Positions 20,232 through 33,372 of a stretch of DNA of 35,256 nt are shown piece by piece. The stretch is from contig DWWJ01000188.1 in the NCBI GenBank assembly GCA_019119795.1, positions 1 through 35,256 on the forward strand. Reading direction: 5' to 3'. Source of the stretch: Candidatus Intestinimonas pullistercoris. GTDB taxonomy: Bacteria; Bacillota; Clostridia; Oscillospirales; Oscillospiraceae. Positions within the stretch are counted from its first letter, which is position 1, and each line of letters opens with the position of its first letter. The translations under genes and the position numbers were made by a program. The notes under the pieces were generated by a model. That model was not told the DNA's origin and did not search any database. It saw only the letters and a list, made by a program, of their open reading frames with translations.

Positions 20232-21677
20232 TCACATGGTCTTCCGTTGTTCCAGCCTTTCCCGGAGCGTTTGATTCACCACCTGGGGCGCGGCCTGTCC
20301 CTTGAGCTGCCGCATGACCTGCCCCACCAGGAAGCCGAAGGCCTTCTCCTTGCCGCCCAGGTAGTCCTCCACCGATTTGGCGTTGGCGGCCAGTACCTGC
20401 TCCACCACCTGGCCCACCAGTCCGGCGTCGGAGACCTGCTCCAGGCCGTGCTCTCTGACATAGGTGTCCACGTCGCCGTCCTCGGAAAAGACGGCATCGA
20501 AGACCTTCACCGCCGTGTTCCGGTTGACCTTTCCCTCCTGGACCAGGGCGATGAGCCGGGCCAGAGTCTTCGAGGTAAGGCGCATCTCCTTTTCCTCTAA
20601 TCCATCCACGGAGAGGCGCCGGAGGACCTCCCCCATGATCCAGTTGGCAGCCTGCTTGGGCGGGGCTCCCAGGGCCACCGTCTCCTCAAAGAAGTCGGCC
20701 AGGGCCTTCTCCCCGGTGAGCATCTGGGCGTCGTAGGCCGGCAGTCCCCACTGGGACTGATAGCGCGCCGCCTTCTCCTCCGCCATCTCCGGGATCTGGG
20801 CCCGGATGCGTTCCAGATATTCCTCCGTAATCTCCAGGGGCGGGATGTCGGGCTCGGGGAAATAGCGGTAGTCCTGGGCGTTCTCCTTGGAGCGCATGGC
20901 GAAGGTGGCGTCCTTGTTCTCATCCCAGCGGCGGGTCTCCTGGACCACCCATTTTCCCTCCTCCAGGGCCTCGATCTGCCGCCGGGCCTCGTAGGCGATG
21001 GACCGGGCGATGGCCTTGAAGGAGTTGAGGTTCTTCATCTCGGTCCGGGTCCCCAGCTCCTGGGAGCCCGCCGGACGCACGGAGAGGTTCACGTCGCACC
21101 GCAGGGAGCCCTCCTGCATCTTGCAGTCGGAGACCCCCAGGTATTGAAGGGTAGAGCGCAACTTCTCCAGGTAGGCGATGACCTCCTCGGCGGAGCGGAA
21201 GTCGGGCTCGGTGACGATCTCGATAAGGGGTACCCCGCAGCGGTTGTAGTCACACCGGGTCTGGTCGATCCAGGGGTCGTGGACCAGCTTGCCGGCGTCC
21301 TCCTCCATGTGGAGCTCGTGGATGCGGATGACCTTCTCCTCGCCGCTCTCGGTGCGGATGGGCACTCTGCCGTTCCGGACGATGGGCAGGTAGAGCTGGG
21401 AGACCTGGTAGGCCTTGGGCAGGTCGGGGTAGAAGTAGTTCTTCCGGTCGAACTTGCAGCGCCGGGTGATCTCTCCGTGCAGGGCCAGGCCCGCCTTGAC
21501 GGCGAACTCCAGCACCTTCTCATTGACCACCGGCAGGGTGCCGGGCATCCCGGTACACACCGGGCAGCAGTGGGTATTGGGCTCCCCCCCGAACGCGGTG
21601 GTGCAGGAGCAGAAAATTTTGGTCTGGGTGGAGAGCTCCACATGGGTCTCCAGCCCGATGACGGTTTCCCAGGTCAT
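20232..21677 (-). CDS. gatB: aspartyl/glutamyl-tRNA amidotransferase subunit B
   Basis: MTWETVIGLETHVELSTQTKIFC...FGGEPNTHCCPVCTGMPGTLP; track start at 21818 is inside gatA and rejected. Confidence 0.97.
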   Translation of the reverse strand: MTWETVIGLETHVELSTQTKIFCSCTTAFGGEPNTHCCPVCTGMPGTLPVVNEKVLEFAVKAGLALHGEITRRCKFDRKNYFYPDLPKAYQVSQLYLPIVRNGRVPIRTESGEEKVIRIHELHMEEDAGKLVHDPWIDQTRCDYNRCGVPLIEIVTEPDFRSAEEVIAYLEKLRSTLQYLGVSDCKMQEGSLRCDVNLSVRPAGSQELGTRTEMKNLNSFKAIARSIAYEARRQIEALEEGKWVVQETRRWDENKDATFAMRSKENAQDYRYFPEPDIPPLEITEEYLERIRAQIPEMAEEKAARYQSQWGLPAYDAQMLTGEKALADFFEETVALGAPPKQAANWIMGEVLRRLSVDGLEEKEMRLTSKTLARLIALVQEGKVNRNTAVKVFDAVFSEDGDVDTYVREHGLEQVSDAGLVGQVVEQVLAANAKSVEDYLGGKEKAFGFLVGQVMRQLKGQAAPQVVNQTLRERLEQRKTM

Positions 21678-21678
21678 C

Positions 21679-23154
21679 TCAGCACGCCTCCTTTCCGGCG
21701 GGGCTCTTTTTGTGGTAGTCGGTCTCCGTCTGGAAGGCGTGGGCAGCGGCCAAGACCTTGGCCTCCCCCAAAGCGGGGCCGATGAGCTGGGCCCCGATGG
21801 GCAGGCCCTGGCCGTCAAAGCCGCAGGGCATGGACAGCCCTGGCAGGCCCGCCAGATTCAGGGGGACGGTATAGATGTCCGAGAGGTACATCTTCAGCGG
21901 GTCCTGAAGGCTCTCCCCCAGCCGGGGGGCGGTGGTGGGGGCCACCGGGGTCAGGAGGAGGTCATACCGCTGGAAGGCGGCGTCATAGGCCTCCTTGATG
22001 ACCGCCTTGACCTGGAGGGCCTTCTTGTAGTAGGCGTCGTAGTACCCAGTGGAGAGGACGAAGGTCCCCAGCAGGATGCGGCGCTTCACCTCTGCCCCAA
22101 AGCCCTCGGTCCGGGTCTTCTGGTAGAGGTCGGTGAGGTCCTCATAGCCCTCCGCCCGCCAGCCGTACTTCACCCCGTCGAACCGGGAGAGGTTGCTGCT
22201 GGCCTCGGCGCAGGCGATGATATAATAGGTGGGGACTACATACTGCATGATGGGCAGGGCGCACTCCTCCACCACCGCCCCCCGGTCCCGGAGGACCTGG
22301 GCGGCGGCCAGGACTGCGGCGCGGACCTCCCCGTCCAGGCCCTCCCCGAAGCAGTCAGCGGGCAGGCCGATCCGCATGCCCCGGATGTCCCCGGTGAGGG
22401 AGGCCAGGAGCCCCCCCGCCGGCACGTCCAGGCTGGTGCCGTCCCGCCGGTCCCGGCCCATGACCAGGTCCAGGACGGCGGCGCAGTCGGCGGCCGACCG
22501 GGCCAGGGGACCCATCTGGTCCAGGGAGGAGGCGTAGGCGATGAGGCCGTACCGGGAGACGGTGCCATAGGTGGGCTTCATGCCGGTGACACCGCAGTAG
22601 GAGGCGGGCTGGCGGATGGACCCTCCGGTGTCGGAGCCCACGGCGTACCAGCACTCCCCGGCGGCCACCGCCGCCGCCGCGCCGCCGGAGGAGCCGCCGG
22701 GCACCCGCTCCAGGTCCCAGGGGTTCCGGGTGGGGCCGTACCAGGAGGTCTCCGAGGTGGAGCCCATGGCGAACTCGTCCATGTTCAGCTTGCCCAGCAG
22801 AACCCCTCCGGCGGCCTGGAGCCGCTCCACTAGGGTGGCGTCGTAGGGGGGAGCAAAGTCCCCCAGAATCTTGGAGGCACAGGATGTCTTGAGCCCCCGG
22901 GTGCAGATGTTGTCCTTCAGGGCCATGGGCACCCCGGCTAGAGGGGAGAGGGCCTCTCCCCTGCCCAGGGCCGCCTCTACTGCTTTCGCCCGCTCCAGGA
23001 CCCGCTCCTCCTCCAGAGCGGTGACAAAGGCGTTGTTCCGGGGCTGCTCCCCGGCAATTCTGTCCAGGGCCGCCCGGGCCGCCTCCACCGGGGAGACCTC
23101 TCTCTTTTGGATCAGGCCGCCCAGCTCCAGGGCGGTAAGTTCCCACAATTCCAT
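21679..23154 (-). CDS. gatA: aspartyl/glutamyl-tRNA amidotransferase subunit A
   Basis: Amidase signature GGSSGGAAAAVAAGECWYAVGSDTGGSIRQPASYCG. Confidence 0.97.
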   Translation of the reverse strand: MELWELTALELGGLIQKREVSPVEAARAALDRIAGEQPRNNAFVTALEEERVLERAKAVEAALGRGEALSPLAGVPMALKDNICTRGLKTSCASKILGDFAPPYDATLVERLQAAGGVLLGKLNMDEFAMGSTSETSWYGPTRNPWDLERVPGGSSGGAAAAVAAGECWYAVGSDTGGSIRQPASYCGVTGMKPTYGTVSRYGLIAYASSLDQMGPLARSAADCAAVLDLVMGRDRRDGTSLDVPAGGLLASLTGDIRGMRIGLPADCFGEGLDGEVRAAVLAAAQVLRDRGAVVEECALPIMQYVVPTYYIIACAEASSNLSRFDGVKYGWRAEGYEDLTDLYQKTRTEGFGAEVKRRILLGTFVLSTGYYDAYYKKALQVKAVIKEAYDAAFQRYDLLLTPVAPTTAPRLGESLQDPLKMYLSDIYTVPLNLAGLPGLSMPCGFDGQGLPIGAQLIGPALGEAKVLAAAHAFQTETDYHKKSPAGKEAC

Positions 23155-23477: not shown

Positions 23478-24809
23478 TCAGGGCTCCAGCCGGGAGAGAT
23501 CCCGTGGGAACAGGCTGGCGTACCGCACATTTTCCAGGCCGCACAGCTGCATGGTCAGCCGCTCCAGGCCGATGCCCAGGCCGCCGTGTGGGGGCATCCC
23601 GTGCTTGTGGATCATAAGGTAGCTCTCAAACTCCGCCGGGTCCATGCCCCTGGCCTCCATCTTGGCCACCTGCTGGGCGTAGTCGTGGATGCGCTGTCCG
23701 CCGGTGGTGACCTCCACGCCCCGGAAGAGGAGGTCAAAGGAGAGGGTGTACCGGGGATCGGCGGGGTCATCCATGGCGTAGAAGGGCCGCTTTTTGCTGG
23801 GGTAGTGGGTGACGAAGACGAAGTCGCTCCCCCACTCCTCCCGGGCATACCGGCCGATGGCGTGCTCCTCCTCGGGCTCCAGGTCGTAGGGGTCCCGGAT
23901 GCGGTAGCCGTACTTCTCCGCTGCCAGGACCTTGGCCTCGTCAAAGCGGACGCAGGGGATGCGGCTCACGTCGGGGACCTGCACCTCCAGGCGCCGGAGG
24001 TCTTCCCCGTATTCCCGCTCCAGCAGGGCCATGGCATACCGGAGGTACCCGGCCTCCGCAGCCATCACGTCCTGGAAGGAGTCGATGAAGCCCATCTCCA
24101 GGTCCAGGGAGGTGTACTCATTGAGGTGGCGGGTAGTGGCGTGCTTCTCCGCCCGGAAGACCGGGGCCACCTCAAAGACCCGCTCGAAGACCCCCACCAT
24201 GGTCTGCTTGTAGAACTGGGGGGACTGGGCCAGGAATGCCTTTCGTCCAAAATAGTCCAGCCGGAAGATGTTGGACCCGCCTTCCGCCCCGGCGTGGACA
24301 ATTTTGGGCGTGTGGATCTCGGTAAAGCCCTGGTCCTGGAAGTATTCCCGGAAGGCACGGCCCAGGCCCGCCTGGAGCCGGAAGATGCTCCGCTCCCGGA
24401 GGTTACGCAGCAGCACCGGCCGCAGGCCCAGCTCCGTGTCCAGGCTCACGTTGAGCCTGGACTTGGGCACCGGCACCGGCATAGGGGCCGCCGGCCGGGA
24501 GAGGACCTCCACCGCCTGGGCCGAGAGCTCCACCCCGCCGGGGGCCCGTGGCTCGTCCCGGAGGGTGCCGGTGACCACCACGGCGGCCTCCTCCGGCACC
24601 TGAGAGAGGTCCAGCCCGTCACAGGTGCACTGGAGGACCCCCTCCCGCTTGCGCAGCTTCAAAAAGGTGAGCCCGCCCCCCATGGGGCGCTTGGCGTGGA
24701 CCATGCCGGAGACCTGAACGGTCTCATTCCGGTGGGCACCTCCCATGATGTCTTTCCATTCCAGCCTTGTGTCTTTCTTCTCTCCTGCCAGGAATTCCAT
24801 ACCGTTCAC
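23478..24809 (-). CDS. aspS: aspartate--tRNA(Asp/Asn) ligase, archaeal-type (no room for bacterial GAD domain)
   Basis: 443 aa class II aaRS; RAFREYFQDQGFTEIHTPKIVHAGAEGGSNIF, FRAEKHATTRHLNEYTSLDLEMGF, GGLGIGLERLTMQLCGLENVR; operon with gatCAB. Confidence 0.93.
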   Translation of the reverse strand: MNGMEFLAGEKKDTRLEWKDIMGGAHRNETVQVSGMVHAKRPMGGGLTFLKLRKREGVLQCTCDGLDLSQVPEEAAVVVTGTLRDEPRAPGGVELSAQAVEVLSRPAAPMPVPVPKSRLNVSLDTELGLRPVLLRNLRERSIFRLQAGLGRAFREYFQDQGFTEIHTPKIVHAGAEGGSNIFRLDYFGRKAFLAQSPQFYKQTMVGVFERVFEVAPVFRAEKHATTRHLNEYTSLDLEMGFIDSFQDVMAAEAGYLRYAMALLEREYGEDLRRLEVQVPDVSRIPCVRFDEAKVLAAEKYGYRIRDPYDLEPEEEHAIGRYAREEWGSDFVFVTHYPSKKRPFYAMDDPADPRYTLSFDLLFRGVEVTTGGQRIHDYAQQVAKMEARGMDPAEFESYLMIHKHGMPPHGGLGIGLERLTMQLCGLENVRYASLFPRDLSRLEP

Positions 24810-24845
24810 GTCCTTTCTTGTCGATCCTCTGGCGGGCGGAGCCCG

Positions 24846-25110
24846 GAAAAAACAAAAAATCCCGAAACTGCCTCATGCAGTCTCGGGACGGAACATTCCG
24901 CGGTACCACCCAAAGATTGCCGCCTCCCCATTGAAGCGGCCACTTGGCTCCCTTAACGCGGGAACACGGGAAGCCCTCCTCCCATTCAGGACTCGAACCT
25001 CCGGCTCAAAAAGTGTTGCGCATCCCCATCCTGCCGGACCGGGCTCTCAGTCGGTGACCCGGATTCTCTGGCGGCCCTCACGGGGCGCGGTCTTTGTCAT
25101 TGCCTTTGAT
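24846..25110 (-). ncRNA. T-box riboswitch controlling aspS-gatCAB
   Basis: Minus strand GGGTGGTACCGCG antiterminator core, then terminator CCCGAGACTGC-ATGAG-GCAGTTTCGGG-ATTTTTTGTTTTTT; upstream Stem I-like region with CGCAACACTTTTTGAGCC specifier context. Confidence 0.93.
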
Positions 25111-25116
25111 GGGGGT

Positions 25117-25145
25117 AGTATATGCGCTTTTCAAGAAAATGTCAA
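25117..25145 (-). promoter_or_regulatory. sigma-A promoter of the T-box-aspS-gatCAB operon
   Basis: Minus strand TTGACA-N17-TATACT. Confidence 0.85.
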
Positions 25146-25191
25146 GGGCCAATTTTGTCAAATATCGGGGTTTCCAGTCTTCTCCCTTTTG

Positions 25192-25200
25192 TGTTATACT
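25192..25200 (+). promoter_or_regulatory. extended -10 promoter for the uracil-DNA glycosylase
   Basis: TGTTATACT (TGn-TATACT) without a good -35. Confidence 0.5.
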
Positions 25201-25233
25201 TCTGTCAGACTCATGAGAAACGGAGAGAATGCC

Positions 25234-25815
25234 ATGCTGAATTGGGCTGAATTGGAGCACACCTGCCGCTCCTGCCAGAAGTGTGCCCTGGCCGAGACCC
25301 GCCACAATGTGGTCTTTGGAGAGGGAAACCGGGAGGCCGAGGTCATGTTCATCGGAGAGGGCCCCGGCGAGCAGGAGGACCTGACCGGCCGTCCCTTTGT
25401 GGGCCGGGCGGGGCAATTTTTGGACGAGATGCTGTCCATCATCGACCTGGACCGCTCCCAATATTTTATCGGCAACATGGTGAAATGCCGCCCGCCCCAG
25501 AACCGGGACCCCCTCAATGTGGAGATGGACGCCTGCATCGGCTACCTCAGAAATCAGGTGGCCCTCATCCGCCCAAAAATCATCGTCTGCCTGGGGCGCG
25601 TCGCCGCCATCCGGCTCATCCGGGAGGATTTCAAGATCACCAAGGAGCACGGCCTCTGGTTTGAGAAGGCCGGCACCTGGATGATGGCCATGTACCATCC
25701 CTCCGCCCTCCTCCGGGACCCTCGGAAGCGCCCGGAGGCCTTCGAGGACCTGAAAACGCTCCAGGCCAAAATTCGGGAGGTCTGTACCCATACCTATGGG
25801 CAAAATGTGCTCTGA
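25234..25815 (+). CDS. uracil-DNA glycosylase, type 4 (Fe-S) family
   Basis: CRSCQKCALAETRHNVVFGEG, FIGEGPGEQEDLTGRPFVGRAGQFLDEML, MVKCRPPQNRDP, MYHPSALLRDP; ATG behind GGAGAG. Confidence 0.93.
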   Translation: MLNWAELEHTCRSCQKCALAETRHNVVFGEGNREAEVMFIGEGPGEQEDLTGRPFVGRAGQFLDEMLSIIDLDRSQYFIGNMVKCRPPQNRDPLNVEMDACIGYLRNQVALIRPKIIVCLGRVAAIRLIREDFKITKEHGLWFEKAGTWMMAMYHPSALLRDPRKRPEAFEDLKTLQAKIREVCTHTYGQNVL

Positions 25816-32382: not shown

Positions 32383-32411
32383 ATCAGATAGGAAACAACT
32401 GAACAGTCAGA

Positions 32412-32549
32412 TGTCTTCAGGGCAGGGTGAAAATCCCGATCGGCGGTATAGTCCGCGACCCGCGCTCCCGCGCGGCTGACCCGGTGGAACTCCGGGACCG
32501 ACAGTGACGTGTCCGTTTTCACGGATGCGAAGTCTGGATGGAAGAAGAT
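32412..32549 (+). ncRNA. FMN riboswitch (RFN element)
   Basis: GGGCAGGGTGAAAATCCCGATCGGCGGTATAGTCCGCGA...CCGGTGGAACTCCGGGACCGACAGT...AGTCTGGATGGAAGAAG matches the RFN core; upstream of ribU. Confidence 0.97.
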
Positions 32550-32585
32550 GTGTTGTATCGCGCACCTTTCCCCATGTATGTGATC

Positions 32586-32620
32586 AGCACCTGGAAGACA
32601 TTGGGTCTTTCAGGTGCTTT
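32586..32620 (+). terminator. expression-platform hairpin of the FMN riboswitch
   Basis: AGCACCTGGAAGAC-ATTGG-GTCTTTCAGGTGCT followed by only TT. Confidence 0.6.
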
Positions 32621-32679
32621 CCACATTACATGGGACGTGGCCGGAGCTTTGGCCATGTCTGAAAGGAGCGCGTATTTTT

Positions 32680-33372
32680 ATGTCCGATCCCACCCTCGTC
32701 CGAACCGGGGCCCGCCCCGCCATGAGCACCAAGACCATCACCACCCTGGCCATGCTCTCCGGTATCGCCTATGTGGTGATGCTGGTCTCCAAGCTGCTGC
32801 CCAGCGTCAACGGCTTTTTGGACTTTGACTTCAAGGACGTGGTCATCTGCATCGGCGGCTTTACCTTCGGGCCTGTGGCAGCCGCCGTCATGGCCATCGT
32901 GGTGGCCTTCGTGGAGATGATCACCATCAGCACCACCGGCCTCATCGGCTTCGTCATGAATGTCTTGGCCACCTGCGGCTTCTGCTGCACTGCCACCTTC
33001 ATCTACAAAAAGCGCCATACCATGGTGGGCGCTGTCCTGGGCCTGGGCCTGGGCGTGGTGGTTCTCACCGTGGTAATGCTGCTGTGGAACTACTTCCTCA
33101 CCCCCATCTACCAGGGTCTGCCCCGGGAGGCCGTGGCCGACATGCTGGTGCCCATCTTCCTCCCCTTCAACCTGGCCAAGGGCGGCATGAACATGGCCGC
33201 CACCCTCCTGCTTTACAAGCCCGTGGTCACCGCCCTGCGGAAGGCCGGGCTGGTGGCCTCCTCCCAGAGCGCCCAGCCCTCCCGCCGGACCAGCGCCGGC
33301 TTCCTCCTCTTCTCCCTGGCCCTGCTGGCCACCTTCGTCATGCTGGCCCTGGTGCTGCTGGAAATCATCTGA
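32680..33372 (+). CDS. ribU: riboflavin ECF transporter S component
   Basis: Multi-TM; LPSVNGFLDFDFKDVVICIGGFTFGPVAAAVMAIVVAFVEMIT and PFNLAKGGMNM typical of RibU; downstream of FMN riboswitch. Confidence 0.92.
   Translation: MSDPTLVRTGARPAMSTKTITTLAMLSGIAYVVMLVSKLLPSVNGFLDFDFKDVVICIGGFTFGPVAAAVMAIVVAFVEMITISTTGLIGFVMNVLATCGFCCTATFIYKKRHTMVGAVLGLGLGVVVLTVVMLLWNYFLTPIYQGLPREAVADMLVPIFLPFNLAKGGMNMAATLLLYKPVVTALRKAGLVASSQSAQPSRRTSAGFLLFSLALLATFVMLALVLLEII

Follow-up and report, generated by a model that had tools for sequence, protein, structure and literature searches.

T-box control of tRNA-dependent transamidation is known from Clostridium acetobutylicum, in which a T-box governs the operon for an AspRS and GatCAB (Saad 2012, 2013, via PMC4206432 and PMC4052509). 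The locus described here lies in a window of 35,256 nucleotides, the whole stretch of DNA that was analyzed, from Candidatus Intestinimonas pullistercoris, whose nearest named relatives belong to Intestinimonas (Oscillospiraceae), with AspRS identities of up to 92%. As far as the C. acetobutylicum aspS2-gatCAB system is described in those sources, the two are alike in that a T-box precedes an extra AspRS gene with GatCAB, in the sensing of tRNA-Asn (predicted for the window's leader), and in that some members also have AsnRS and AsnB as a redundant route. Set against the same accounts, the window's leader differs in having C at position -1 of the specifier, such that a second, overlapping codon would be CAA (Gln) instead of one for Glu, and in lacking the Stem I S-turn, and its genome encodes GlnRS. 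The regulatory logic, on those accounts, is already known from Clostridium and is not new. What is new, at the level of sequence, is the proof by comparison of the Oscillospiraceae specifier, a specifier loop without an S-turn that is unusually simple and conserved, and an implied conserved wobble between UGGU and G73 of tRNA-Asn. The comparisons described below indicate that the element is very probably a transcription-terminating T-box with an AAC specifier, which would sense uncharged tRNA-Asn and switch on aspS2-gatCAB.

A first-pass annotation, made from the letters of the sequence, had listed a promoter, a Stem I-like region, an antiterminator core and a terminator with a T6GT6 tract, and all of these are present on the minus strand, as judged from the sequence and from a match to the Rfam T-box family RF00230 (Table 1). 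The promoter, TTGACA-N17-TATACT, has perfect -35 and -10 boxes. The match to RF00230 is full length (1-219), with 68.3 bits and an E-value of 7.3e-15 by cmscan, or 9.2e-15 in a genome-wide scan. The default Rfam scan missed the leader because this score does not reach the curated gathering threshold of 93, which one of the genome's eight T-boxes passes and seven do not. The leader carries the UGGNACC bulge in the form UGGUACC, an antiterminator/terminator switch, and the distal double T-loop (AGAGA and UGxRA). With each structure folded in isolation, the terminator, of 12 bp, is at -22.7 kcal/mol, versus -10.8 kcal/mol for the antiterminator. The specifier region, CGCAACACTTTTTGAGCC, runs from 25020 to about 25003 on the minus strand, and GGGTGGTACCGCG is a further named element present in the minus-strand leader. 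A T-box core is found upstream of aspS in 79 of 79 related loci with upstream sequence, about 100-500 nt away, and a chance occurrence is therefore excluded. The operon behind the T-box encodes a non-discriminating AspRS (ND-AspRS) and GatCAB; the true start of gatB is placed near 21677 because the family match begins near residue 48 of the open reading frame at 20232-21818.

Table 1. Features of the aspS2-gatCAB locus, in window coordinates
Feature	Start	End	Strand	Basis
-35 box, TTGACA	25140	25145	-	read directly
-10 box, TATACT, 17 nt from the -35 box	25117	25122	-	read directly
T-box leader, RF00230	24881	25109	-	covariance-model match
AAAG, 5' half of the helix below the specifier loop; partner CUUU (25013-25010)	25092	25095	-	covaries in 60 leaders
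AC, 5' side (2 nt) of the internal loop that holds the specifier	25090	25091	-	AC or AU in 60 Oscillospiraceae leaders
CGC, pairs with GCG (25021-25019) at the usual site of the Stem I S-turn (AGUA/GAA)	25087	25089	-	covariation
AGAGA, T-loop 1 of the elbow-binding module in distal Stem I	25065	25069	-	read directly; motif definition PMC7583486
UGAGA (UGxRA), T-loop 2 of the elbow-binding module in distal Stem I	25045	25049	-	read directly; motif PMC7583486
Position -1, C; with the next two bases, overlapping CAA	25018	25018	-	constant C in Oscillospiraceae; other lineages have G
Specifier, AAC (Asn)	25015	25017	-	invariant in leaders with a readable loop
Conserved purine 3' of the specifier	25014	25014	-	A in 38, G in 22 of 60
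CUUU, 3' half of the helix below the specifier loop	25010	25013	-	covariation
T-box bulge, UGGUACC (UGGU 24908-24905)	24902	24908	-	read directly
Terminator hairpin, UCCCGAGACUGC-AUGAG-GCAGUUUCGGGA, competitor of the antiterminator	24860	24888	-	folding energies
T6GT6 tract of the terminator	24847	24859	-	read directly
aspS2, archaeal-type non-discriminating AspRS (ATG 24800; GTG 24809 also possible)	23478	24800	-	NF003483, 536.5 bits, cut-off 353
gatC	23170	23457	-	TIGR00135, 84.8 bits
gatA	21679	23154	-	TIGR00132, 591 bits
gatB	20232	21677	-	NF004014, 668 bits

The specifier had been proposed as AAC followed by A, with an Rfam covariance alignment as the suggested check. That alignment proved ambiguous, with GCAACAC and a gap assigned to the specifier columns of the window's leader and a posterior of about 50-80%, and was rejected as a specifier call by itself; the specifier was therefore fixed by covariation and comparison across relatives, which give AAC. 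Stem I could be read in 60 Oscillospiraceae leaders, the window's among them, and every one has the loop C-AAC-R. It forms a 2x5 internal loop, 5'-AC / 3'-C-AAC-R, between two covarying helices. The lower helix, of 4 bp, occurs as AAAG:CUUU, GGAG:CUCC, GAAG:CUUC, GACG:CGUC, GGGG:CCCC and AACG:CGUU, and the upper helix as CGC:GCG, CAU:AUG and CGU:ACG. Across these leaders (20 distinct sequences), 97.9% of cells are paired, a percentage biased upward because the helices were taken as the best-pairing register in a narrow range; 24 cells are changed on both sides, and none of 500 shuffles scores as high. All seven pairs are found in 57 of the 60 leaders, versus 1.5% in a shuffled best-of-16 control.

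Beyond this family, the loop of Lachnospiraceae leaders is G-AAC-R, and elsewhere in the class most ND-aspS leaders have GAAG-AAC, then a purine, and keep the canonical AGUA. AAC is the only triplet common to all readable Oscillospiraceae, Lachnospiraceae and wider class leaders, in a tally outside which stand some class-level leaders that are unreadable by eye (e.g. L184, L196, L230), and with a class-wide ND-aspS sample picked by a fixed core pattern that would miss leaders without the exact core. The comparison thus supports AAC as the specifier of the window's leader. The earlier placement is borne out by this invariant triplet, by the purine that follows it and by the covarying helices around it, and the spacing, noted as one nucleotide longer than in Bacillus subtilis glyQS, is real and common to several Intestinimonas leaders (L287, L289, L038). 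A naive Rfam alignment sets A-C-A-C in the specifier columns, which would allow another frame to be read, as ACA (Thr) or CAC (His), but the base after AAC varies between A and G, such that neither codon is conserved. The discriminators U73 (Thr) and C73 (His) also misfit UGGU, and the operon holds no Thr or His gene, leaving a Thr or His specifier with scarcely any probability.

The first gene of the operon encodes an AspRS, and would suggest that the leader senses tRNA-Asp. A GAC codon in the specifier loop, named beforehand as the finding that would speak against Asn, was looked for and is not there, whereas the Asp T-boxes of the genome and its relatives do have GAC, most of them with UGGC. 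A second T-box of the same genome (L007) reads GAA-GAC-G with UGGC and lies upstream of hisS, a gene identified in the window's own genome. The leaders before the bacterial-type AspRS (aspS1) of genus members and of one further genome, G008, also present GAC (L290-L293), with UGGC in three of the four and UGGU in the other; in these genomes, C mostly faces G73 in the Asp T-boxes, versus U in the aspS2 leaders. These hisS (aspS1) T-boxes share the RNA family with the aspS2 leader and resemble it in distal loop and discriminator domain, but differ in the GAC specifier, in keeping the AGUA/GAA S-turn, and in mostly having UGGC. With GAC absent from the loop and present in Asp T-boxes elsewhere in the genome, the sensing of tRNA-Asp was rejected, and its probability is close to nil. 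Since a separate GAC/UGGC T-box stands before hisS, it is well supported that Asp and Asn signals would be kept apart within one genome, and that the window's operon would listen to Asn rather than Asp.

T-boxes normally have an S-turn (AGUA/GAA) right above the specifier, which is described as keeping clear of the modified tRNA base 37 (PMC7583486). The AGUA/GAA S-turn is absent from Stem I of the Oscillospiraceae aspS2 leaders, which have Watson-Crick pairs instead (CGC:GCG in the window); AGTA text matches in two of them (L091, L092) are upstream of the loop. AGUA is present in the other seven T-boxes of the genome. Eight T-boxes of ND-aspS genes elsewhere in the class (L190, L193, L194, L197, L198, L209, L233, L237) likewise place AAC before an archaeal-type AspRS but differ in having the canonical AGUA ... 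GAAG-AAC loop, and either C or U as the N of the bulge. The S-turn is a usual, not an obligatory, T-box feature, and the window's leader is without it. tRNA-Asn normally carries the bulky t6A at base 37, and the conserved loop without an S-turn provides a natural test of the job of the S-turn in Stem I. The notion that its loss is unique to this clade was dropped: two T-boxes of other Oscillospirales (L267, L268), with specifiers that differ from those of the AAC leaders, are also missing the AGUA half.

The UGGU bulge is kept in 59 of the 60 Oscillospiraceae leaders. All 21 tRNA-Asn genes read in relatives, including three of the same genus, carry G73 as the discriminator. No tRNA-Asn gene was found in the recovered contigs of the source genome, which is 79% complete, and the tRNA-Asn bases are those of relatives. 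UGGU can meet G73 by wobble only, not by a Watson-Crick pair, and the two counts together therefore imply a conserved G.U wobble; at sequence level this agrees with the prediction that the bulge would pair by G.U with a G discriminator. A G.U exception of a comparable kind has been described in Trp T-boxes (PMC7778990). UGGU was also considered as a sign of a tRNA with A73, but this was rejected: among the tRNAs read, A73 occurs only in those for Glu and Lys, and the window's loop has no Glu or Lys codon. GAA is present in Lachnospiraceae loops. tRNA-Asn has U1-A72 in all three same-genus genomes read, a pair also described in PMC4206432 for surveyed bacteria with an extra AspRS and GatCAB. 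Four tRNA-Asn genes of Oscillospirales (L122, L176, L179, L180) have G1-C72, not U1-A72, and in at least one such genome (G018) no ND-AspRS exceeds the cut-off, which would be expected if GatCAB substrates are marked by U1-A72.

The conserved C at position -1 creates a Gln codon, CAA, that overlaps AAC. The leader might accordingly be a two-codon T-box, in which C-AAC is read both as AAC by tRNA-Asn and as CAA by tRNA-Gln, such that both tRNAs amidated by GatCAB would be sensed. The C is invariant in 60 of 60 species though unpaired; tRNA-Gln has the anticodon UUG and, like tRNA-Asn, G73; and an Asn/Glu two-codon T-box is reported for the C. acetobutylicum transamidation operon (Saad 2013, as cited in PMC4052509). 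Yet the genome and most relatives encode GlnRS and so do not require GatCAB for Gln, and CAA is followed by C where a purine is usual. Moreover, position -1 is G in other lineages, C also stands there in an unrelated T-box of the same genome (L001, GAA-C-GUC-G), and the -1 G of a related operon (L295) appears paired by inspection. Because the genome has GlnRS and CAA lacks the following purine, a single Asn reading is favored, and sensing of both tRNAs is improbable. It is likewise improbable that the leaders make up an Oscillospiraceae T-box subtype, with a plain helix for the S-turn and a minimal 2x5 loop C-AAC-R read in two frames, that would integrate tRNA-Asn and tRNA-Gln charging. Lachnospiraceae leaders from Enterocloster, Hungatella and relatives (L101-L116) have a similar loop with G at -1 (GAA overlapping AAC) and UGGU, and an AspRS about 61-66% identical to that of the window; because tRNA-Glu has A73, these are candidates for an Asn/Glu two-codon mode.

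With AAC as the single specifier, the scheme of tRNA-Asn binding, antitermination and physiological role that we infer is as follows. The Stem I specifier loop would present AAC and bind tRNA-Asn (anticodon GUU). The 3' GCCA end of the uncharged tRNA would pair with the UGGU bulge, by three Watson-Crick pairs and the G73.U wobble, and so stabilize the antiterminator, allowing RNA polymerase to read through into aspS2-gatCAB. ND-AspRS would load Asp on tRNA-Asn, GatCAB would then amidate it, and with charged tRNA-Asn the terminator would form. The first-pass annotation had likewise placed the operon under Asn-tRNA charging and assigned it the supply of Asn-tRNA by transamidation, a proposal supported by the AAC comparison, the separate Asp T-box and the presence of ND-AspRS with GatCAB. 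That annotation mentioned neither the absent S-turn nor the CAA that overlaps the specifier.

The source genome contains AsnB and GlnRS, and a search for asnS, suggested with that proposal, found AsnRS as two pieces on different contigs, which probably belong to a single broken gene. With AsnRS and AsnB also present, the operon would be a backup for asparagine starvation, in which Asn is made on the tRNA from Asp. Two genus members (G002, G004) have AsnRS, AsnB, GlnRS and the bacterial AspRS together with ND-AspRS, and in a third genome (G003, 97% complete) neither AsnRS nor AsnB was found over the cut-offs. The operon is probably a backup on shortage of free asparagine in some species and the only route in others. 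Where a species lacks AsnRS, the switch would respond to limitation of ND-AspRS or of Asp, not of Asn itself, because Asp-tRNA-Asn is also a charged tRNA. The specifier names the amino acid that is served, such that an AspRS gene under a tRNA-Asn regulator would make Asn and not Asp; this helps to annotate duplicated AspRS genes and to explain the two Asn-tRNA routes in gut Clostridia.

In two other genera of Oscillospiraceae, a bacterial-type AspRS replaces the archaeal type and is followed by gatA and gatB (L294, L295, L298, L299), with an unmatched open reading frame of 92-93 aa at the place of gatC. The loops of their T-boxes (L294/L298, G005:C86; L295/L299, G010:C8) also contain AAC by inspection, which suggests that this wiring has been assembled with either type of AspRS.

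Two further features of the window lie on the plus strand. A family-4 uracil-DNA glycosylase (24745-25815) is divergent from the T-box promoter; its reading frame as listed begins too early, within the leader, and the true start probably lies near 25233. The sole element reported by the default Rfam scan of the window is an FMN riboswitch (32409-32553, 95.5 bits), which precedes the substrate-binding component of an ECF transporter (32614-33372), probably a riboflavin transporter.
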